Shown here in pieces: positions 35,046 through 55,629 of a stretch of DNA of 64,000 nucleotides. The DNA is from Sediminibacterium sp. (GTDB taxonomy: Bacteria > Bacteroidota > Bacteroidia > B-17B0 > Aurantibacillaceae): contig JASGCO010000005.1 of NCBI GenBank assembly GCA_030054095.1, positions 124,001 through 188,000 on the forward strand, written 5' to 3'. The notes beneath the pieces were generated by a model that was not told where the DNA came from, ran no database searches, and saw only the letters and a program-made list of their open reading frames with translations. The translations under genes were made by a program, and so were the position numbers. Numbering within the stretch: position 1 is the first letter of the stretch; each line of letters begins with the position of its first letter.

Positions 35046-36077
35046 GTGTTTACCCGGAAAAATAATTTTTGGATTCATTTAATAGGTTCTGCCGTATTTC
35101 TGTTTTCCGTATTTCTGTTCTCTCCTGACTGGCCCAACATCCGGCGTATGGCTCAGAATCCGGTTGGCTTTGGAGAAATTGTGTTTCAGGTAGAAATGTT
35201 AGTGGTGTTTTACCTTAATTATTACCTGTTGATTGACAGTTTGTATTTTAAACGGCGGTACTTTATTTACATTATTTTACTGGTAAGTATTTTTCTGTTT
35301 TTATATGGAGTGGATGCCATATTGTTGCATTTTAAAAGATCGCATGGGCACACTATCCCCAATCATGCACATTTTCCGGGAGTTCGTCCGAAAATTTTTA
35401 TGTTGTTACTCAACAAAAAATTGAACCTTTACATACTGGTAATTATTGTTGCCTTACTTATTAAAATAAAACAGAGGTTCAGCATTATACAAGCGCAGAA
35501 CATTAGTAACGAGTTATCATTTCTTAAGGCTCAGATTAACCCCCACTTTTTCTTTAATACGCTTAATAGCATTTATGCCCTTAGTTTGCAGAAATCAGAC
35601 GAAACCCCCCAGGCGATTGTTAAATTATCGGGCATGATGCGGTATGTAATTAAAGAAACAGGAAGTGAGAAGGTGAGTATTAGCGATGAATTGAATTATT
35701 TAATGGATTATATCGAACTTCAAAAATTAAGAATAACACCTAACGTTACATTAGAAGTGACGATAACCGGACAGCAGGAAAAATTCAGAATAGCGCCATT
35801 GATATTAATTCCTTTCGTAGAGAATGCGTTTAAGTATGGGTTGAGTACAGAAGAAGCGGCAAGTATTTTCATTCTCATCACTATTTCTAACGAAGGAGAA
35901 CTTCACATGGTTGTTAGGAATCGCAAAGTGCAGTTAACGGACGAATCGGGCCAGCAGACTCAACTAGGGTTGATAAATGTTAAAAAAAGGTTACTTTTAC
36001 TTTACCCCGGAAGGCATAAACTATATACCAACAACTTAACTCAGGAATTCAGTGTTGACCTGACCCTTCAACTATAA
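35046..36077 (+). CDS. LytS-type sensor histidine kinase
   Basis: 343 aa with a GTG start. Four N-terminal TM segments cover residues 9 to about 142. The His_kinase domain (PF06580) contains FLKAQINPHFFFNTLNSIYAL with the phospho-acceptor His, and the ATPase N-box PLILIPFVENAFKYGL; GLINVKKRLLLLYP closes it. It lies 66 nt after the phosphatase gene and overlaps the response regulator by one base (TAATG), so the pair is translationally coupled. Confidence 0.92.
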   Translation: MFTRKNNFWIHLIGSAVFLFSVFLFSPDWPNIRRMAQNPVGFGEIVFQVEMLVVFYLNYYLLIDSLYFKRRYFIYIILLVSIFLFLYGVDAILLHFKRSHGHTIPNHAHFPGVRPKIFMLLLNKKLNLYILVIIVALLIKIKQRFSIIQAQNISNELSFLKAQINPHFFFNTLNSIYALSLQKSDETPQAIVKLSGMMRYVIKETGSEKVSISDELNYLMDYIELQKLRITPNVTLEVTITGQQEKFRIAPLILIPFVENAFKYGLSTEEAASIFILITISNEGELHMVVRNRKVQLTDESGQQTQLGLINVKKRLLLLYPGRHKLYTNNLTQEFSVDLTLQL

Positions 36078-36772
36078 TGATTAAAGCAATAGCCATAGAC
36101 GATGAACCCCTGGCCCTTCAGGTAATTGATGCGTTTTGCAAAAAATCGGGAATGGTTACCTTACAAAAAGGATTTACAACACCCAAAGAAGGACTGCAGT
36201 TTTGCCTTCAGTCGCCGCCAGAGCTTCTGTTTCTGGACATTCACATGCCAGATTTAAGTGGTCTGGAACTAATCAAGAACATACCATCCAAAGTTGCGGT
36301 TGTTTTTACAACCGCGTTTGACCGCTATGCTCTGGACGGGTATAATTTAAATGCTATTGATTATTTGTTAAAACCATTTTCGTACGACCGGTTCATGCAG
36401 TCATTGCAAAAGGTTAAGGTTTATGTTGGAGGAGTAATGCTCCCGGACCCTTTCCTGTTTATAAGAGCCGACTATTCACAAATAAAAGTGAACATTAATG
36501 ATATAGAATACATAGAGGGATTGGATGATTACGTAAAAATACACATACAGGGTGCCAAGACCATAGTAGCACGTTACACATTAAAATACTTTACAGAACA
36601 TCTTCCCCCAGAGCGTTTCCTCCGGATTCACCGCTCATACATTATTCCTGTAAAGCGCATCACTCAAATCAAGACCAAAACAGTGTTTCTGGGGGCGGTT
36701 GAATTACCCGTGGGAAGCAGCTATGAATCCCAGCTAAACATCCTGAAAAGAGCTATCCAATTAAATCCATAA
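36077..36772 (+). CDS. LytTR-family response regulator
   Basis: 231 aa. The receiver domain carries AIDDEPLALQVIDAF, LLFLDIHMPDLSGLEL with the phospho-acceptor Asp, VVFTTAFDRYALDGYNLNAIDYLLKPFS with the conserved Lys. The C-terminal LytTR DNA-binding domain has INDIEYIEGLDDYVKIH and FLRIHRSYIIPVKRI. It is the partner of the preceding kinase. The eight-gene CotH-VTC operon begins 99 nt later and is a natural target, though no binding site was identified. Confidence 0.94.
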   Translation: MIKAIAIDDEPLALQVIDAFCKKSGMVTLQKGFTTPKEGLQFCLQSPPELLFLDIHMPDLSGLELIKNIPSKVAVVFTTAFDRYALDGYNLNAIDYLLKPFSYDRFMQSLQKVKVYVGGVMLPDPFLFIRADYSQIKVNINDIEYIEGLDDYVKIHIQGAKTIVARYTLKYFTEHLPPERFLRIHRSYIIPVKRITQIKTKTVFLGAVELPVGSSYESQLNILKRAIQLNP

Positions 36773-36871: not shown

Positions 36872-38557
36872 ATGAGGAAAAATTTATTTGCTGCCCTTTT
36901 ATGGTTTGGTTTAATCGTAATAGAGTTACGCGCACAGCAATGGAACGGATTAACATACTATAGCAATTCCGGTTCTACCATTGGCCGCCTTATTGACACG
37001 AACAGTACCGTAGTCAAAACATTTAATTTTACTGGTGGCACCGGCTACTCCACTCATTTAATGCCCGGTGGATACGTGTACCGTACGGTTCAAAACGCAG
37101 GAAATGTATTAACCGGAGGAGGAATGACCGGAAGAATCCAAAAATGGGATTATAATAACACCCTGTTGTGGGATTATACCTACTCATCCAGCACCTATTG
37201 CCTGCATCACGATCACTGTCCTTTACCAAACGGCAATGTCCTTGTAATTAGTTACGACGTTAAAACAGCCACGGAAGTCTCAAATGCCGGGGGCAATTTT
37301 GCGGGGACTATGTGGGCAGAGAAAATTATGGAACTTAAACCCGTTGGAACCAATTCTGCTCAGGTGGTATGGGAATGGAAGGTGTGGGACCATCTAGTGC
37401 AGAATGTGAATGCCGCGAAGGCCAACTATCAGCCATCTATTGTCAACAATCCACAATTGCTAAATATCAATTTTCAGGCGCAAAAGGACTGGATGCACAT
37501 GAATGGTATTGATTATAATCCTGTTTTAGATCAGATTGTGGTAAGTTCGCATAATCTTAACGAATGGTATATTATTGACCACAGTACAACAACGGCAGAA
37601 GCTGCCTCGCACACCGGCGGACTTGCCGGAAAGGGAGGCGATTTTCTATACCGTTGGGGCAATCCGGCAGCGTATGGTGCAAGTGGCTCAACAATACTTA
37701 ATGTAACCCATGATGCGCACTGGATTCCTGAAGGGAGTCCGGATGCAGGATTTTTGGCGGGGATTAATAATAAAGGGCAAACCAGTCCTGCTACTAAAAC
37801 AACAGTAGATAGAATTCCACCGCCTCGTGTAGATTATAATTACACTATTACTCCGGGTAGTGCGTTTACACCGGCTATTTATTCCTCGCGGCACACTTCT
37901 ACCGGTTATACCAGTAACATGGGGTGTAGTAACCAGTTTCCCAATGGAAACCAAATGGTTTGTCTGGCCATGGTAGGATCTATCTACGAAATAGATCCGG
38001 CTGGAAGTATAATCTGGTCATTCAGTACGGGAGGAGCGACTCCTCAGGCACACCGTTATACCACCTGCTACCTGAATAACCCCGCGCCCGCTCAGCCAAC
38101 AATTTCTTTGATTAGTGGCGCGTTGGTTTCTACGCCAGCAAGTAGTTATCAGTGGTACATGAATGGCAATCTAATTGCCGGAGCAACAAATCAAACTTTT
38201 ACACCTTCACAATATGGGGTATATGTTGTAAAAACAACAGATGCCAACGGTTGTGTTTTTGCCCACTCCACCTCCTTTGTGTACTCTGCAACAACGGCTA
38301 TTAAAACAAATGGGAATAGCTCATCAACAGTTAATGTATATCCAAATCCGGGAACCGGATTATTTGTACTGGATTTAAACGGCATTTCAGAAAATGCATT
38401 TACCGTTTCGGTGTACGATGTAAATGGCAAACGTATTTTAGAAGAGAAAGACGCGAAAACCATCGATCTTACGGCATATAATGCCGGCATATACACCATT
38501 CACATACAAACCGCCTCTTTACAGAACATTTATAAAAAAGTTAGTTTAATTAAGTAA
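36872..38557 (+). CDS. Secreted arylsulfotransferase-like (ASST) protein with T9SS sorting domain
   Basis: 561 aa. Signal peptide at residues 1-22, then a beta-propeller with the ASST hallmark HHDHCPLPNGNVLVISYD, DWMHMNGIDYNPVLDQIVVSSHNLNEWYIID and FPNGNQMVCLAMVGSIYEIDPAGSIIWSF, each a propeller blade end. An Ig-like part with YQWYMNGNLIAGAT follows and then a T9SS type A domain (VNVYPNPGTGLFVLDL...YNAGIYTIHI). ASST enzymes transfer sulfate between phenolic compounds, but many Bacteroidota homologs may not be catalytic. First gene of the packed operon ending at 44896. Confidence 0.87.
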   Translation: MRKNLFAALLWFGLIVIELRAQQWNGLTYYSNSGSTIGRLIDTNSTVVKTFNFTGGTGYSTHLMPGGYVYRTVQNAGNVLTGGGMTGRIQKWDYNNTLLWDYTYSSSTYCLHHDHCPLPNGNVLVISYDVKTATEVSNAGGNFAGTMWAEKIMELKPVGTNSAQVVWEWKVWDHLVQNVNAAKANYQPSIVNNPQLLNINFQAQKDWMHMNGIDYNPVLDQIVVSSHNLNEWYIIDHSTTTAEAASHTGGLAGKGGDFLYRWGNPAAYGASGSTILNVTHDAHWIPEGSPDAGFLAGINNKGQTSPATKTTVDRIPPPRVDYNYTITPGSAFTPAIYSSRHTSTGYTSNMGCSNQFPNGNQMVCLAMVGSIYEIDPAGSIIWSFSTGGATPQAHRYTTCYLNNPAPAQPTISLISGALVSTPASSYQWYMNGNLIAGATNQTFTPSQYGVYVVKTTDANGCVFAHSTSFVYSATTAIKTNGNSSSTVNVYPNPGTGLFVLDLNGISENAFTVSVYDVNGKRILEEKDAKTIDLTAYNAGIYTIHIQTASLQNIYKKVSLIK

Positions 38558-38566
38558 CGCAAAAAG

Positions 38567-39574
38567 ATGAAAAAAGTAATAGCATTAGCTCTGGCAGGAT
38601 TATTCTCAGTATCCTTACACGCTAAAAAAGTTAAGTTTGCGGTTGATCTGACCGGAGCCACAATTAGTCCAAATGGAGTGCATATAATCGGCGATTTTCA
38701 AACCATTGCTGGTTTCGGAACAAATTGGGATCCGGGAACAACAACATTGACTCAGGAAGGAACGTCTTCCATATACAGCATCATTGTAACTATTCCCGCT
38801 TTTCAAAAATACGAGTACAAGTTTGTTAATGGGAATCAAACGTATGAAGCGGAGTTTGTGCCGGATGAATCCCGCGTGGATGGCGTATCGAACGATAACC
38901 GCTGGTTGTATGTTGATTCTCTTGCTAATGATACCACTTTTGTGGGAGCTATTGTATTTGGAGCGAATGCGCCGTCCGGGAAGACACTGATCCGTTATAA
39001 AGTAGATATGACCAATGCTGGTACAATCCCATCGCAGGGTGTACACGTTGGAACCGGCTACCAGAACCCGGCGTTTAACCCAGCAACGATCAGAATGTGT
39101 AATCTGTTAGGAGATAATGTCTATCAAATTATTAATTATGTAAACAGTACCGGATTAGTAACATTTCAGTTTTATAAAGGCAATACCGCAGGAGCCGCTG
39201 AAACGGTTCCGGGGTCTTGCGCTGTTAATGGTCGCCGGCAAATCAACCTTACAAAAGATAGCGTACTTACAGCATATTGCTTTTCAGGGTGTGTAGCTTG
39301 TTCACAAGTTGGAATTAAAGAAACGTTGGCAAATGTACTTGGTGTAAATACCTATCCTAATCCGGCAGATAAAGAACTTATTGTTCGAACCGAAATTCAG
39401 GATGGTTGGTATTTCCAGTTATTTGACGCGGCAGGTAAAGCAGTGATAACTGGTAAACAGCACTCTGTAAAAATGGTTGTCCCAGTTGATCATCTTGGAA
39501 CCGGCATCTATCATTTACGAATCAGCACGCCTTCCGGACAGAGTGCAACACGACCTGTAGTTATTGCGCATTAA
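38567..39574 (+). CDS. Secreted protein with two E-set/CBM-like repeats and T9SS sorting domain
   Basis: 335 aa. Signal peptide at residues 1-19. Two similar beta-sandwich units are seen, starting KVKFAVDLTGATISPNGVHI and IRYKVDMTNAGTIPSQGVHV; the first contains KYEYKFVNGNQTYE, as in starch-binding/glycogen-binding E-set folds. The C-terminus is a T9SS domain (NTYPNPADKELIV...LGTGIYHLRI). It is 9 nt after the ASST gene and overlaps the CotH gene by one base. Possibly a surface carbohydrate-binding or scaffold partner; function unknown. Confidence 0.8.
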   Translation: MKKVIALALAGLFSVSLHAKKVKFAVDLTGATISPNGVHIIGDFQTIAGFGTNWDPGTTTLTQEGTSSIYSIIVTIPAFQKYEYKFVNGNQTYEAEFVPDESRVDGVSNDNRWLYVDSLANDTTFVGAIVFGANAPSGKTLIRYKVDMTNAGTIPSQGVHVGTGYQNPAFNPATIRMCNLLGDNVYQIINYVNSTGLVTFQFYKGNTAGAAETVPGSCAVNGRRQINLTKDSVLTAYCFSGCVACSQVGIKETLANVLGVNTYPNPADKELIVRTEIQDGWYFQLFDAAGKAVITGKQHSVKMVVPVDHLGTGIYHLRISTPSGQSATRPVVIAH

Positions 39575-41844
39575 TGGTAAAACAGTTTTTATCCGGTTTA
39601 TTATTCATTATAGCGCTGCCTGTAGTAAGGGCCCAGCATTTTTATGATCCGGCAACGATACAGAAGATAGAGTTGCGTTTTGCGGCCTCCAATTGGGATT
39701 ACATGCTCGATACCGCCAAGCTGGGTGCAGAAGGCTATGTAATGGCCTCCTGGGTAAAGATAAACGGGAACAGGATAGACAGCGTGGGGGTTAAATACAA
39801 AGGCAACAGTTCTTATGATTCCACGCGGCTTAAAAACCCTATCCACATTGAACTGGATGCCTATGCCGATACCAAGAATTATCAGGGATATAAAGATCTC
39901 AAACTTAGTAACTGCTATCAGGATCCGTCTATGATAAGGGAAGTATTAGCCTATAATTTACTTTCCAATTATATGGATGCGCCTCAGGCTAATTTTGCAC
40001 AGGTCTATATTAATGGGGTTTATATGGGCGTTTACACAAATGTAGAGTCCATTAACAAAACATTTTGCAGTGAACACTTTTATGGTAACAATGGAACATT
40101 TATTAAGGGAAACCCGCAGGTGGTGCCAACAACCGCTACAAAATGTAATCTTTTAAAGTTAAACGGCGACAGCAGCAGTTACTTTAACTTCTATGAAATA
40201 AAGTCAGATTACGGCTGGAAGCAGTTGGAAATTCTTTGTGATTCTATAACCAATAAACCCTCCTCCGTTCCAGTTATGATGGATCTGGACAGAGTGTTGT
40301 GGATGCTGGCTTTTAACAACGCGGTAATTAATCTGGATAGTTACAGCGGAGCGTTCTGCCAGAATTATTACTTATACCGCGATGGAACCGGGCGCTACAA
40401 CCCTGTTGTCTGGGATCTGAATATGAGTTTTGGAGGATTCCCTTTTTTGGGAAGTTCTAACACCAGTCTGGCCGCGTTGACAATTTCAAACATGCAAAAT
40501 CTGACACCCAACATTCATAGTACAGATAATTACTGGCCACTGATAAAGGCAATATATGCCAATCCGTTATATAAGCGGATGTACATTGCCCATTTGCGAA
40601 CAATTATCAAAGATCACTTTACAAGCGGATCATATATAACGGCCTATAACACATATAAAGCACTTATAGACACGGCCGTACAAAGTGATACACGTAAGTT
40701 TTTCAGCTATACCCAATTTCAGAATGCGCTTACAGCCAATTATTCTGTAGGAAGTTATTCTGTCCCGGGAATTCAGACTTTAATGCAAGCCCGCAGCAAT
40801 TACCTTCAAACAACAGCAGAGTTTACAGCTGCGTCTCCAACAATTGGACTTACGGGCATAAGTAATGGAACACCTCTTATGAATGCCACTGTTTCGTTCA
40901 CATCTATGGTTAACAATGCTACATCTGTTGAGCTAAGATACAGATACAGAGCGTCTGAAAAATTCGAAGCAGTTACCATGTACGACGATGGGTTGCATGG
41001 AGACGGCGTTTCGGGAGATAATATATATGGCACAACATTTACGTTGAAAAACAACAAAATACAATATTATGTTTTTGCCGATAACGCCAGCGCCTCCCGC
41101 TTTTCACCAGAGGGAGCCGAACATGTCTTTTTTGAATACAACGCTATTCCTGCTCCACAAGCAGGACAACTTGTTATTAATGAGTTTTTGGCGGATAATA
41201 AGAGCGATGTTCGTAACGAATACCATTTATTTGAAGACTGGATAGAGCTGTTTAACAACAGTAATTCTACACTGGATCTTAGCGGGCTATATCTCAGTAA
41301 CTCTTCAGGCACAAAAGCAAAGTACAGTTTTCCAAACGGAACAAGTATTGCGCCTTATGGTTTTTTAACCGTTTGGGCAGATGACATTAACCTCCCCAAC
41401 GCAACGCAATTGCACGCGCCATTCAAAATAGATAAAGCCGGAGACGAACTGGTGTTAAGCAATGGCTTGCGAATCGTTTACGATCAGGTTGTTTTTCAGG
41501 CACAGTCTGAGGATAAATCGTTCGGGCGTTGCCCGGATGGAACAGGGGCATTTAAAATATTTACTTACCCATCTTTTGGCATGAGTAATTGCGTGGTGGG
41601 ATTAGATGAACAGCAGGAAGCAATGAAACAATGGGTAGAAGTGTATCCGAATCCATCCACGGATTATTTAATTATCCGGACACACAAGAAAGAGCATCTG
41701 GTATTAACGGATCTGTTAGGCAAACCGGTTCTTGAATGGAATGTAAGCGGAACAGAACAATTCAATCTGTCAGGCCTTAAAGCGGGAATATATTTACTTC
41801 GTTCGGATTACGGTACACAAAAACTAATTATTACAGCACATTAA
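39574..41844 (+). CDS. CotH kinase family protein with lamin-tail domain and T9SS sorting domain
   Basis: 756 aa. Signal peptide at residues 1-20. The CotH domain spans about residues 25-400: the NWDYMLDTAKLG start, VGVKYKGNSSYD, KNYQGYKDLKLSN, MIREVLAYNLLSNYMDAPQ, and a later NPVVWDLNMSFGGF carrying a likely metal-binding Asp. Next an Ig-like segment, a lamin-tail domain (about residues 530-650, LVINEFLADN...LTVWADD), and a T9SS type A tail (VYPNPSTDYLII...LKAGIYLLRS). CotH proteins are atypical secreted kinases in Bacillus and fungi-interacting bacteria; here it would act outside the outer membrane. Translationally coupled to the gene before. Confidence 0.9.
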   Translation: MVKQFLSGLLFIIALPVVRAQHFYDPATIQKIELRFAASNWDYMLDTAKLGAEGYVMASWVKINGNRIDSVGVKYKGNSSYDSTRLKNPIHIELDAYADTKNYQGYKDLKLSNCYQDPSMIREVLAYNLLSNYMDAPQANFAQVYINGVYMGVYTNVESINKTFCSEHFYGNNGTFIKGNPQVVPTTATKCNLLKLNGDSSSYFNFYEIKSDYGWKQLEILCDSITNKPSSVPVMMDLDRVLWMLAFNNAVINLDSYSGAFCQNYYLYRDGTGRYNPVVWDLNMSFGGFPFLGSSNTSLAALTISNMQNLTPNIHSTDNYWPLIKAIYANPLYKRMYIAHLRTIIKDHFTSGSYITAYNTYKALIDTAVQSDTRKFFSYTQFQNALTANYSVGSYSVPGIQTLMQARSNYLQTTAEFTAASPTIGLTGISNGTPLMNATVSFTSMVNNATSVELRYRYRASEKFEAVTMYDDGLHGDGVSGDNIYGTTFTLKNNKIQYYVFADNASASRFSPEGAEHVFFEYNAIPAPQAGQLVINEFLADNKSDVRNEYHLFEDWIELFNNSNSTLDLSGLYLSNSSGTKAKYSFPNGTSIAPYGFLTVWADDINLPNATQLHAPFKIDKAGDELVLSNGLRIVYDQVVFQAQSEDKSFGRCPDGTGAFKIFTYPSFGMSNCVVGLDEQQEAMKQWVEVYPNPSTDYLIIRTHKKEHLVLTDLLGKPVLEWNVSGTEQFNLSGLKAGIYLLRSDYGTQKLIITAH

Positions 41845-41855
41845 AACAGAACAGT

Positions 41856-42269
41856 ATGATTAAAAAGTATTATTTACGCTCATTCATTTTGACAGGTATG
41901 ATGGGGATACTATTCTTTTACGGATGTAAAAAAGCACCGGGAGAAGGTGGTAAAACAACACTGAAGGGGAAAATATGGGTGGAGGACTGGAACAGCGGAT
42001 TCACCGTAAAAAATGGGGAGTATGCTGGGACCGATGAGGATGTGTTTATCATTTATGGCGACAATGTTAGTTATAATGACAAAACAAGAGCCAACTATAA
42101 TGGAGAATTTGAATTTAAATACCTGCGTAAAGGCAAGTATAAAATTTATGTATATTCAAAGGATAAAAGCCTGCAATCGGCTTCGGGTGACGTTGCGATT
42201 GTAAAAGAAGTAGAACTTAGCGGGAAAAAGCAAACGACGGCGTTAGAACAAATAGTAATTTATAAGTAA
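41856..42269 (+). CDS. Small lipoprotein with SpaA/carboxypeptidase-reg-like fold
   Basis: 137 aa. Signal peptide with lipobox FFYGC (Cys near residue 24). The mature part has one beta-sandwich: KTTLKGKIWVEDW, VFIIYGDNVSY, NYNGEFEFKYLRKGKYKIYVYSKD, typical of prealbumin-like carboxypeptidase-regulatory domains. It would be an outer- or inner-membrane lipoprotein anchoring part of the CotH system. 11 nt after the CotH gene, 1 nt before the next gene. Confidence 0.82.
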   Translation: MIKKYYLRSFILTGMMGILFFYGCKKAPGEGGKTTLKGKIWVEDWNSGFTVKNGEYAGTDEDVFIIYGDNVSYNDKTRANYNGEFEFKYLRKGKYKIYVYSKDKSLQSASGDVAIVKEVELSGKKQTTALEQIVIYK

Positions 42270-42270
42270 A

Positions 42271-42786
42271 ATGAATAAGAGTGTATTATGTGGTTTTTTT
42301 ATCCTTTTCGCGGGGATGATTTTTTCGCAGAAAAAGAAGGAGATAAAAAAGCACGGCATTAAGGCCATTACCGTTACAGAAGTGAAGATCAGCAATGTGA
42401 GTGAAGCGGCAACAGAAGACGCGGTTACAGCTAAAGCCATTATGGATGAAAAAAATATTTATGATAAGGAAGGACGTTTGGCGGAACATTATAAATACGG
42501 TAAAGACGGGGCACTGAAGGCGATTGTACGCTATAAATATAATGCGGAAGATGATGTGATTGAGGAAGCGGAGTACGATGACAAAAATAGCTTGAAAGAG
42601 AAACAAACGGTTAAATATAATAAGTTAGGCGAAAAAACAGAGGAACTGATAACGGACAAGGACGGAAAGCAAGTTAAAAGACACACGTATAGTTACGATG
42701 CGTCGGGACTCAAAACCGAGCGGAAAACGTATGATGCCAATAACGCGCTGGTTTTAACGAAAAAATACACCTACGCATACAAATAG
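42271..42786 (+). CDS. Exported YD/RHS-like repeat protein
   Basis: 171 aa. Signal peptide at residues 1-20. The remainder is a series of about 20-residue repeats around YDKEGRLAEHYKYGKDGALK, YDDKNSLKEKQTVKYNKLGE and YDASGLKTERKTYDANN, rich in Lys/Glu/Tyr, like short RHS or MORN-type repeats. No enzymatic motif. It sits between the lipoprotein and VTC genes: 1 nt after the former and overlapping the latter (TAGTG). Confidence 0.75.
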   Translation: MNKSVLCGFFILFAGMIFSQKKKEIKKHGIKAITVTEVKISNVSEAATEDAVTAKAIMDEKNIYDKEGRLAEHYKYGKDGALKAIVRYKYNAEDDVIEEAEYDDKNSLKEKQTVKYNKLGEKTEELITDKDGKQVKRHTYSYDASGLKTERKTYDANNALVLTKKYTYAYK

Positions 42787-43556
42787 TGCAGCAATTGCAA
42801 CATATACTCGCGTTGTTTGACCCCATTTCGTTAAAGGAAATGGACGGGGTAAAACTTATGAACCGCACGGACACAAAGTTTACATTTCATGTTTCAAAAT
42901 TGCCGGCGTTGCTTGATGCTATCCGGGGATCTTATTTTTGTTTGGCTGTTGGCGGAATAACAACCAGCAGATACAGTACGGTATATTACGATACGGATGA
43001 GTTGAGTTTATATCAGCAACATCATAATGGGGTTCTTAACCGCTATAAAATCCGTCACAGAACGTATGTTGATTCGGGGCAAACGTTTTTGGAGGTGAAG
43101 TTTAAAAGTAATAAAGAACGAACCATTAAAACACGAATAAAGAGTCCATTGGAAACAAACGGATTCGGTAGAGTAGCATTGCAGTTTCTGGAAGAGGAAT
43201 TACCCTTTGACCCAAAGAATTTACGGCCATCTGTATGGGTAAATTATACACGCGTAACATTGGTTAGTAAGACCAGCGCGGAACGACTAACCATAGATGT
43301 TAACCTTGAATTACGAAATGGAGAGCGCATGGTTCATTTGGGAAATCTGGTCATAGCAGAAGTAAAACAGGAAAGCAGGAAAGCATCCGTGTTTATTCAG
43401 GAGGTTAAACGTTGCGGAATAAGAGAGGGCGCAATCAGTAAATACTGTTTTGCCATCGCGCTTACCCGCGATGCGGTAAAACGGAATAATTTTAAACAGA
43501 AAATTAAAACCATTAAAGAGATAATTCATGATACACCTGTTACAAATCAGCGCTGA
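42786..43556 (+). CDS. Polyphosphate polymerase (VTC) domain protein
   Basis: 256 aa with a GTG start overlapping the previous TAG. It is a stand-alone VTC domain (PF09359): MNRTDTKFTFHVSKL, TVYYDTDELSLYQQHHNG, NRYKIRHRTYVDSGQTFLEVKFKSNKERTIKTR, VWVNYTRVTLVS, ERLTIDVNLEL, LVIAEVKQES. These strands supply the basic and acidic residues of the tunnel that in yeast Vtc4 binds nucleotide and growing polyphosphate. No signal peptide, so it is cytoplasmic. It overlaps the DUF4956 membrane protein gene by 29 nt, arguing for a complex. Confidence 0.9.
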   Translation: MQQLQHILALFDPISLKEMDGVKLMNRTDTKFTFHVSKLPALLDAIRGSYFCLAVGGITTSRYSTVYYDTDELSLYQQHHNGVLNRYKIRHRTYVDSGQTFLEVKFKSNKERTIKTRIKSPLETNGFGRVALQFLEEELPFDPKNLRPSVWVNYTRVTLVSKTSAERLTIDVNLELRNGERMVHLGNLVIAEVKQESRKASVFIQEVKRCGIREGAISKYCFAIALTRDAVKRNNFKQKIKTIKEIIHDTPVTNQR

Positions 43557-44223
43557 AATGGCTGCCGATAGTGCGAGTCAGGAAGCGGCCGCCCTTGTTG
43601 CAAAGGCTGAGACTGCGGAACTGATGAAAATGCTTCAAAAATTTTCATTCAGATTGCTGATAGACATTCTGTCCACATTCCTGCTTATCCGCATGGTTTA
43701 TTACCGTATTTACAAACGCAGCGATCTTTTTTTTACGTTCTTCATCTTTAATGTTGTTATTTTTCTGATCAGTTTTCTGCTGAATAAAGTTGAATTGAGT
43801 ATGGGGGCCGCCTTTGGTTTATTTGCAGTATTCAGCATGTTACGCTACAGAACAGAAGATATAAGCATTAAAGATATGACCTATCTTTTTCTGGTAATTG
43901 CAATAGGGTTAATTGCAGCAGTAACCAAGATAAAGGATACCGTAGATGCTTATGAATATGTATTTCTGGGGCTCATTAATCTTGTTATTATTGTTGTGGC
44001 CTGGGTGTTTGAGGGAAGTTTCTTTTTCAGAAAGGAAGCGGTTCAGTTAGTGATGTATGAGAATATTGCGCTTATTAAGCCTGAACGTCAGGCAGAACTG
44101 ATTCAGGATTTAAAAAGCCGGACAGGATTAAACATCCACCGTGTTAGCATTGGCAAACTGGATTTTCTGAAGGATGCCGCTCAGATTAAGATATACTATT
44201 ACGAGACAGAAGCGAATGCGTAA
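43528..44223 (+). CDS. DUF4956 membrane protein
   Basis: 231 aa. Four TM segments at about residues 45-150 (LLIDILSTFLLIRMVYYRIY, FFTFFIFNVVIFLISFLL, MGAAFGLFAVFSMLRYRTEDI, DMTYLFLVIAIGLIAAV, plus a last one at about 145-160), then a cytoplasmic ferredoxin-like C-terminus (LIQDLKSRTGLNIHRVSIGKLDFL). The MGAAFGLFAVFSMLRYRT box is characteristic of DUF4956. From my knowledge of such clusters, DUF4956 is recurrently beside VTC-domain genes. It overlaps VTC by 29 nt and DUF2490 by 8 nt. Confidence 0.9.
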   Translation: MIHLLQISAEMAADSASQEAAALVAKAETAELMKMLQKFSFRLLIDILSTFLLIRMVYYRIYKRSDLFFTFFIFNVVIFLISFLLNKVELSMGAAFGLFAVFSMLRYRTEDISIKDMTYLFLVIAIGLIAAVTKIKDTVDAYEYVFLGLINLVIIVVAWVFEGSFFFRKEAVQLVMYENIALIKPERQAELIQDLKSRTGLNIHRVSIGKLDFLKDAAQIKIYYYETEANA

Positions 44224-44896
44224 ACAGTCAATCATTATACTGCTGTTGGTTATTGCTTTCTATAGTAAGACAATTGCTCAGGACATTGATGATGACGCCG
44301 CATTGTGGATGACCTTAAACGCGGAAAAGACACTAAATGAAAAGTTAAGTATTCATGTGGGACAGCAGTTGCGAATGAACAATAATTTTGCAGATGCCGG
44401 ACAATTTACAACAACAGTTGGCGGACAATATAAAGTTAGAAAAGGAATAAGGGTATCAGCTGATTACGCTTTCCGTCAGCGCCGCCGTCTGGATGCGTCT
44501 TATAGCTTACGCCATCAGTTTTTTATTTCCGTCTTCCTGAGGAAGAAAATAAACCGGTTTACAATTGTGTATCGTAACCGGACACAGGCTCAGTATAATG
44601 ATTGGCTAACGAGTGAAAACGGGGCTGCTCCACGACTATATAACAGGAATAAATTAACCATTAAGCGGGAATTGAATAAAAAGTGGGAAGTGTATCTGGC
44701 GGGAGAACTTAACCTTCCCATTAGACAACCACAACGCCTTAGTATAGACAGAAGCCGTCTTTTTACGGGAATGATTTATACTTTTTCTCGCCGCTTAGAT
44801 CTGGAAGCTTATTTTATGTTGCAACGGCGTTATACATACACAGACAAGGCCCGACGTGATTTTGTGTATGGCCTTACGCTCAATTATTCTTTTTAA
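44216..44896 (+). CDS. DUF2490 outer-membrane beta-barrel protein
   Basis: 226 aa from the ATG at 44216, which gives a signal peptide (SIIILLLVIAFYSKTIAQ); a longer frame from 44174 would bury it. The mature part is alternating beta strands: KLSIHVGQQLRMNNNF, RKGIRVSADYAFRQRR, RFTIVYRNRTQAQYND, YNRNKLTIKRELNKKWEVYLAGELN, ending in Phe (TLNYSF), as expected for an outer-membrane barrel. A second DUF2490 protein is at 54907. Last gene of the operon. Confidence 0.85.
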   Translation: MRKQSIIILLLVIAFYSKTIAQDIDDDAALWMTLNAEKTLNEKLSIHVGQQLRMNNNFADAGQFTTTVGGQYKVRKGIRVSADYAFRQRRRLDASYSLRHQFFISVFLRKKINRFTIVYRNRTQAQYNDWLTSENGAAPRLYNRNKLTIKRELNKKWEVYLAGELNLPIRQPQRLSIDRSRLFTGMIYTFSRRLDLEAYFMLQRRYTYTDKARRDFVYGLTLNYSF

Positions 44897-45290
44897 TTCT
44901 CATTTTTTCTTCAGTGCCAATGTAATCTGGGTTAAACCTAACAAACAAATTAATCCATACAAGGCGTGATTTGCGGAACACCCAGGGGGATAGGAAAAGA
45001 ATCAGTAAAGAGTAACAAATCAGAAAGGGGAGCACATTCAACCCTGCCCAAACCACCAGTATCAGGAACAGCCCAATGCCAATACCAACAGATAGACCAT
45101 AACTAACGTACATGGCGCCGTAGTAGAAGCCCACTTCTCTAACAAAATCTTCCTGACAATAACTACAATGGCTGTGTATTTTGTCAAAGTGTTTAAGCCG
45201 GTAAGGGTTACCGTCAATAAAGAAGGATCCTTTATGACAGCATGGACACTTATTAAAAAGAATGGAGTATAAACGAGTAGCTTTAAACAT
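44880..45290 (-). CDS. DUF983 membrane protein
   Basis: 136 aa from the ATG at 45290 (a start at 45308 would add six residues). NKCPCCHKGSFF and HSHCSYCQEDF are two CxxC-type pairs, probably a metal site, followed by the DUF983 core FVREVGFYYGAMYVSYGLSV and two further TM segments. Function unknown. It overlaps the convergent DUF2490 gene by 17 nt. Confidence 0.88.
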   Translation of the reverse strand: MFKATRLYSILFNKCPCCHKGSFFIDGNPYRLKHFDKIHSHCSYCQEDFVREVGFYYGAMYVSYGLSVGIGIGLFLILVVWAGLNVLPFLICYSLLILFLSPWVFRKSRLVWINLFVRFNPDYIGTEEKMRIKKNN

Positions 45291-45352
45291 GTCTAAAGTT
45301 AAGTGCATTTAAAGAGATAATAAAAACATGAACATAAAACAGTTCCATGTAA

Positions 45353-54906: not shown

Positions 54907-55629
54907 ATGCATCGAAATGCTCGGATAATTCCCTTGACGCAACTGGTGACCTTAGTTTTAATAACTTGTTTTTCCCTATCCTACGGGCAAAAGAGTAATG
55001 TGGGTAATTGGTGGATGTATTTTGGAAATGCCACGCTTAAAAACCGGTTTAACTGGCATCACGAAGTACAATACCGTAATTACAATATGATAGGCGATTT
55101 AGAGCAGTTGTTGGTGCGAACGGGCCTCGGCTATAATCTGACAGAAACTAACGCCAATGTTTTGGCTGGTTACGGTTACATTCGTTCACAACGCTATATT
55201 AAACCCGATAGCAGCGTGTTTACAAACGAGCACCGTACGTTTCAGCAATTCATCATGCGTCAGCATTTTGGAAGAGTGACAATACAGCACCGTTACCGCG
55301 TAGAACAACGCTTTTTAACAAACGCTACCCGCTGGCGGCTCCGGTATTTTCTGGCTATACAAATCCCGCTGAATAAACCGAAAGTAGAAAAAGCAGCAGT
55401 TTATCTTTCTTTATATAACGAAGTATTTCTTCACGCCGACGTTCCCGTTTTTGACCGTAACCGTGTTTTTGGGGCCCTGGGGTATATGTTTACCAAATCC
55501 TTGCGCTGTGAGCTGGGATATATGACACAGATTCTGGAAAAAACGTCCCGCCCTCAGTTTCAGGTGGCGCTTTATAATACATTTCCTTTTTCATTAAAAT
55601 CAAAAGAAGAACATGAGCAAAAAAACTGA
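54907..55629 (+). CDS. DUF2490 outer-membrane protein
   Basis: 240 aa. Signal peptide at residues 1-27 (ending CFSLSYGQ). Beta strands WWMYFGNATLKNRFNWHHEVQYRNYN, VLAGYGYIRSQRYI, FIMRQHFGRVTIQHRYRVEQRF and RWRLRYFLAIQIPL fit the DUF2490 barrel, related to the 44216 protein but with distinct sequence. Its last 17 nt overlap the AlkD-like gene start. Confidence 0.82.
   Translation: MHRNARIIPLTQLVTLVLITCFSLSYGQKSNVGNWWMYFGNATLKNRFNWHHEVQYRNYNMIGDLEQLLVRTGLGYNLTETNANVLAGYGYIRSQRYIKPDSSVFTNEHRTFQQFIMRQHFGRVTIQHRYRVEQRFLTNATRWRLRYFLAIQIPLNKPKVEKAAVYLSLYNEVFLHADVPVFDRNRVFGALGYMFTKSLRCELGYMTQILEKTSRPQFQVALYNTFPFSLKSKEEHEQKN

Follow-up and report, generated by a model that had tools for sequence, protein, structure and literature searches.

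CotH kinases, VTC domains and DUF4956 proteins have been reported together before. In Gram-positive Pel clusters, CotH-PPP(VTC)-DUF4956-DUF4832 form a set of accessory genes (PMC7112168), and VTC and CotH are found together in NELoc-2 of C. perfringens (PMC2879425); in both cases the function was left open. We analysed a stretch of 64,000 nucleotides from Sediminibacterium sp. (hereafter the window), of which positions 36872-44896 hold eight same-strand (+) open reading frames (ORFs) encoding, in order, an ASST-like protein, an E-set protein, a CotH kinase with a lamin tail domain (LTD), a lipoprotein, a YD-like repeat protein, a VTC domain, a DUF4956 protein and a DUF2490 barrel. This locus is a diderm variant, linked to the type IX secretion system (T9SS), of the known and uncharacterised CotH-VTC-DUF4956 association. 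It is real, conserved and more widespread than an earlier note on this DNA had supposed.

As in the Gram-positive Pel-linked module, CotH, VTC and DUF4956 lie here in one surface-related cluster, with two small genes between CotH and VTC. The window locus differs in its diderm setting and in possessing an outer-membrane barrel, a lipoprotein and three T9SS-delivered proteins. Neither the eight genes nor the two directly upstream of them include pelDEADAFG, DUF4832 or a diguanylate cyclase, Pel not having been searched for genome-wide. The earlier note had mentioned VTC-DUF4956-CotH clusters in other phyla, and these do exist: besides the published clusters (PMC7112168), annotated plasmids carry adjacent CotH-VTC-DUF4956 in Pseudobutyrivibrio and VTC-DUF4956-CotH in Planococcus. 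DUF4956 with CotH nearby was also found in unannotated records of Enterococcus and of the actinomycete Nonomuraea. One record titled Candidatus Methanoperedens nitroreducens (L152) holds a VTC-DUF4956 pair in a genome in which no CotH was found.

The single parts have described relatives as well. The VTC protein has the same catalytic residues as the eukaryotic VTC complex, for which a coupling of synthesis to membrane translocation has been proposed (PMC9911596). The CotH belongs to the same kinase family as the spore CotH of B. subtilis and keeps both catalytic Asp residues (PMC7821199); it differs from the latter in its T9SS tail, its LTD and its genetic tie to VTC-DUF4956. The predicted DUF2490 fold is closest to the 12-strand barrels of the oligo-anion porins KdgM and NanC. 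In B. thetaiotaomicron, the genes BT3498-BT3499 place DUF4956 beside DUF2490 as in the window, and are listed in a transcriptome table with their expression under iron conditions (PMC10434189).

A conserved eight-gene arrangement of separable parts

All eight ORFs described in the earlier note are present in the same order and with the same identities; Pfam and NCBIfam searches bear out ASST, CotH with LTD, VTC, DUF4956, DUF2490 and three T9SS type A tails, the E-set and YD assignments coming from weak matches. The intergenic spacings are, in order, +9, -1, +11, +1, -1, -29 and -8 nt, which agrees with the gaps of 1-11 nt and overlaps of 1-29 nt proposed before, provided that translation of DUF2490 starts from the ATG at 44216. 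With 44174, the position of the first in-frame ATG, the overlap with DUF4956 would grow to 50 nt (-50); the start at 44216, with its overlap of 8 nt, is most likely. The same-strand run ends after DUF2490, because the downstream gene (44880-45308) lies on the opposite strand. That all genes are co-translated is inferred from the spacing, but the overlap of VTC with DUF4956 is a conserved feature in its own right, occurring in 96 of 115 loci (median -23 nt).

The same order was surveyed in 87 genomes, of which 68 had DUF4956, 57 had VTC and 80 had CotH, and VTC adjoined DUF4956 at 61 of the 74 DUF4956 places. The five VTCs for which no neighbour was listed came from fragmented assemblies, most of them at contig ends. 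When 247 Bacteroidota genomes were examined, all 43 that contained VTC also contained DUF4956, and 42 of the 43 also contained CotH, which was found in 96 of the 247 genomes overall (Fisher p 1.8e-19 for the association of CotH with VTC at genome level). As shared ancestry inflates this p-value, physical linkage carries more weight, and at least 14 of the 47 VTC places of this set have a same-strand CotH no more than 10 kb away. Thus VTC, DUF4956 and CotH co-occur beyond chance, a point on which the earlier note had made its proposal depend.

Gene maps covering the window together with 40 loci at order level, 20 at phylum level and 80 in named genome records were merged into 128 non-identical DUF4956 loci, a non-random set found through DUF4956 and chosen in part for CotH nearby. 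The same-strand gene run with DUF4956 contained VTC in 116 of these loci, DUF2490 in 84, a YD-like gene in 74 (usually immediately 5' of VTC), CotH in 59, a lipoprotein in 57 and ASST in 22. ASST, CotH, lipoprotein, VTC, DUF4956 and DUF2490 were united in one gene run in 20 loci. The eight-gene arrangement is far beyond chance. A T9SS-linked version with ASST and DUF2490, of which the earlier note knew no other case, recurs across Bacteroidota and is not unique to the window. T9SS tails were only slightly enriched near DUF4956 as compared with farther genes of the same loci (p 0.036), and this enrichment is therefore not main evidence.

Within this arrangement the eight genes do not form one fixed complex in their behaviour but fall into sub-modules that can separate. 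YD-VTC-DUF4956, lipoprotein-DUF2490 and the secreted set move separately, and the secreted set itself may be ASST-E-set-CotH, a T9SS-tailed repeat protein of 550 residues or other CotH types. Such separation and recombination would suit an operon of convenience, in which unrelated surface genes are held together by shared regulation. However, these genes come together again in many genera and in more than one class, CotH-VTC-DUF4956 recurs in Bacillota and DUF4956-CotH in an actinomycete; we give this explanation very little credence.

VTC, DUF4956 and a predicted route across the envelope

Our preferred reading is a trans-envelope phosphate-polymer module, in which VTC would carry out synthesis, DUF4956 would provide a path through the inner membrane, DUF2490 would form the exit, and CotH and the ASST-like protein would use the product at the surface. 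We hold it tentatively, at somewhat less than an even chance.

The VTC gene (42786..43556, +; 256 aa, GTG start) encodes a triphosphate-tunnel domain of the polyphosphate-polymerase type (PF09359, 3.2e-27, 96.1 bits vs a cut-off of 23). A single-sequence search of the PDB gave no match and a profile was required, which matched yeast Vtc4 (3g3q) at 1.4e-15. Residues R90, R92, K105, E192 and K219 align with R264, R266, K281, E426 and K458 of Vtc4 and are invariant in 33 homologues (Vtc4 residues are numbered as in the 8i6v chain; for E426 and K458, two letters missing at the start of the alignment line were added by hand). Mutation of R264, R266 and E426 impairs yeast Vtc4 (PMC9911596). Because these catalytic residues are conserved, the cytoplasmic VTC protein probably makes polyphosphate from ATP. 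In contrast to the eukaryotic complex, Pfam detects only the VTC domain and no SPX domain in the 256 aa protein, and no DUF202-type membrane subunit among the eight genes; the membrane partner is a separate protein that matches DUF4956 only and has no detected relation to Vtc1.

This partner (43528..44223, +; 231 aa; PF16316, 7.3e-51) is predicted to be an inner-membrane protein with a small soluble C-terminal domain. Its AlphaFold model, with a predicted local distance difference test score (pLDDT) of 86.7, shows five helices followed by beta-alpha-beta-beta, and Y58 and R106 are invariant in 51 homologues. Near-obligate pairing with VTC and the predicted topology make DUF4956 a candidate inner-membrane path; probably co-translated with VTC, it would couple synthesis to translocation like the membrane part of the eukaryotic complex. 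Since its fold matches are weak and mixed (a ferredoxin-like, ACT-like or dodecin-like C-terminal domain, and RND or channel helices at Z <=5.6), no fold name is given to it.

The weak likeness of the C-terminal domain to these folds would also fit a regulatory pair, in which VTC binds or turns over ATP or polyphosphate while DUF4956 senses or gates through its small soluble domain, and in which the surface module is controlled with no export. Pairs of LytTR regulators and histidine kinases recur nearby, as this explanation would lead one to expect. In the window, a LytS-type histidine kinase (35046-36077; His_kinase 1.1e-25) and a LytTR regulator (36077-36772; LytTR 3.2e-18), both on the + strand (35046..36772), lie upstream of the operon with a gap of 99 nt and are a possible regulator of it. 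Of 137 loci, 22 have a similar pair no more than 10 genes away from DUF4956, a linkage that is only suggestive because chance matches are likely in a genome with 33 LytTR genes. Every tested polymerase residue is retained, however, and regulation hardly accounts for partners of the exporter and porin types; purely regulatory action thus appears decidedly unlikely to us.

Porin-like features are seen in the last gene of the run, the DUF2490 outer-membrane beta-barrel (44216..44896, +; PF10677, 1.2e-20). DUF2490 is a family of its own (TC 1.B.81) whose function is not established (PMC4827864). The AlphaFold model (pLDDT 91.7) is a barrel in which DSSP resolved 11 strands, and its closest solved folds are the acidic-sugar porins KdgM, VhGalP and NanC, of the oligogalacturonate and sialic-acid type (Z 15.7-16.0). 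With KdgM (4fqe), 155 residues were aligned at Z 16.0, a root-mean-square deviation of 2.3 and an identity of about 11%. Of the strand positions, ten are conserved as basic and two as acidic, a further likeness to these porins, although identity to KdgM/NanC is 9-11% and Pfam places the barrel in DUF2490 and not in the KdgM/NanC sequence family.

The basic barrel would serve as the outer-membrane exit, a part that HlyD/TolC-type proteins may play in some other lineages. HlyD was detected above the Pfam cut-off beside VTC-DUF4956 or DUF4956 in loci L077, L079 and L083, and TolC in L083 and L171; matches were marginal in L085 and below the cut-off in L076 and L082, and no HlyD/TolC Pfam match was obtained among the neighbours in L080 and L081. 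These exporter-type neighbours support the export reading, and polyphosphate export by the module is plausible. The assembly across the whole envelope with polyphosphate or phosphoryl chemistry that the earlier note envisaged fits the catalytic residues, the co-occurrence, the predicted pore and the exporter-type neighbours; as one fixed complex it did not hold.

Secreted proteins and a possible supply of phosphoryl groups

The CotH gene (39574..41844, +; 756 aa) combines a CotH kinase domain (5e-45, 154.8 bits vs a cut-off of 23.8) with a choice-of-anchor X domain (choice_anch_X), an LTD (2.7e-17) and a T9SS type A tail (Por_Secre_tail). Its profile matches the solved CotH 5jd9 at 1.8e-41, and G77, S80, E158, D255 and D281 are invariant in the homologue alignment. 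D255 and D281 align with the Asp pair in 5jd9 and correspond to D228/D251 of B. subtilis, as judged from the motif and the 23-residue spacing of the pair in 5jd9 and not from direct alignment; the D228Q and D251A forms of B. subtilis CotH are inactive (PMC7821199).

The ASST-like protein (36872..38557, +; 561 aa) matches PF05935 (7.9e-13, 48.6 bits vs a cut-off of 24.2) and PF14269 (1e-6) and has a T9SS type A tail (Por_Secre_tail 8.8e-12, TIGR04183). H112/H113, H209 and H280 are invariant in 11 homologues; when its profile was compared with the PDB, only T9SS tails matched, and no solved ASST was obtained for mapping the E. coli catalytic His/Arg residues. The E-set or starch-binding-like protein (38567..39574, +; 335 aa) also ends in a type A tail (Por_Secre_tail 2.1e-7; TIGR04183 4.5e-10), and its Pfam matches to X25, SusF_N, CBM48 and CBM20 are all below the cut-off. 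Three type A tails above the cut-off thus bear out the T9SS signals noted earlier in three products. Together with the SprA found in the genome (SprA_N 4e-162), they point to T9SS as the route by which CotH, the ASST-like protein and the E-set protein would reach the cell surface. The small lipoprotein (41856..42269, +; 137 aa), a carboxypeptidase-regulatory/fn3-like sandwich with weak fn3_3, Y_Y_Y and SdrD_B matches and the N-terminal lipobox-like motif FFYGC, and the secreted YD-like repeat protein (42271..42786, +; 171 aa; YD_repeat_2x 1.5e-5) would, from their signals, reside in the periplasm or the outer membrane.

The resemblance of the E-set protein to starch-binding domains, and the position of the Gram-positive homologues beside Pel or other glycosyltransferases (PMC7112168), would fit a polymer other than polyphosphate, namely a phosphate-bearing glycan that is exported or modified with phosphoryl groups from VTC. 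Against it, Pfam finds no glycosyltransferase among the eight genes, and we regard such a glycan as improbable.

Extracellular ATP is scarce. In the trans-envelope module, the surface CotH, and perhaps the ASST-like enzyme, would use the exported polymer as donor or act on the same surface target, and the net effect would be a supply of phosphoryl groups outside the cell. In a more specific form, VTC-DUF4956-DUF2490, with HlyD/TolC parts elsewhere, would be a secretion system that feeds extracellular CotH, perhaps also the ASST-like protein, with phosphoryl groups in place of ATP; this we consider unlikely. The export reading nevertheless offers a concrete and testable account of how a phosphate donor could reach secreted kinase-like proteins, since even for spore CotH the source of ATP has been called unanswered (PMC7821199). 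It also offers candidate functions for DUF4956 and DUF2490, both rarely mentioned in the searched literature, and if true would give bacteria an equivalent of the eukaryotic VTC complex acting across two membranes.

Alternatively, polyphosphate exported by VTC-DUF4956 may be an end product, displayed or released for metal binding, adhesion or matrix formation, while CotH uses ATP or another donor; the genes would then share a role with no donor-acceptor reaction between them. This is consistent with the ATP-dependence of known CotH in vitro (PMC7821199), with the VTC loci in which a T9SS-tailed repeat protein replaces CotH or CotH is absent, and with the place of the Bacillota trio in exopolysaccharide clusters (PMC7112168). 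Yet the link between CotH and VTC at genome level (42 of 43) is tighter than two merely related functions require. The scarcity of ATP outside the cell likewise counts against an ATP-dependent surface kinase, and the end-product explanation seems to us rather doubtful.

Points against the proposed module, the host genome and further loci

Several observations weigh against the trans-envelope module. Autotransporter barrels match the DUF2490 model nearly as well as the porins do (Z 15.8 to 14), so that the function of DUF2490 is not derivable from its fold. Another DUF2490 protein in the window (54907-55629), unlinked to VTC, is similarly basic, and a basic barrel may be a family-wide trait. 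The fold search of the PDB brought up no solved transporter that convincingly resembles DUF4956, and no biochemistry on any bacterial VTC-DUF4956 was found in the literature. PPK1 is also present in the genome. VTC loci without CotH exist, one of the 43 VTC genomes has no CotH at all, and the in vitro use of ATP by known CotH, cited above, belongs here too.

The window's own genome adds one more such point. A second secreted set (L180:4434-14584, contig 29) comprises a T9SS-tailed repeat protein of 557 aa, a CotH of 1148 aa with LTD, a lipoprotein, DUF2490 and LytTR with a kinase, and has no VTC beside it. CotH, lipoprotein and DUF2490 can hence function independently of VTC or make joint use of its product. 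Because this set has no adjoining VTC, yet the genome contains a single VTC and a single DUF4956, one VTC-DUF4956 supply pair might serve two surface sets.

Some further loci deserve mention. DUF4956 is retained in L066, together with YD, and in L067, and no VTC was seen in either; DUF4956 may have a VTC-independent role. An N-terminal VTC fusion (778 aa) in L074 was rejected, the ORF being over-long and its genome rich in GC. Beside a run of VTC-DUF4956-DUF2490, an HTTM-like integral membrane protein and a cupin/JmjC-like protein were recognised by eye (L058:3378-6140). Bacteroidota-like T9SS operons in records titled Alphaproteobacteria (L147) and Bifidobacterium breve (L169) are probably mis-binned or mislabelled contigs of metagenome-assembled genomes. 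Finally, tandem CotH genes stand beside VTC-DUF4956 in L037, L038 and L065 (three, two and three copies, respectively), which suggests substrate diversification.

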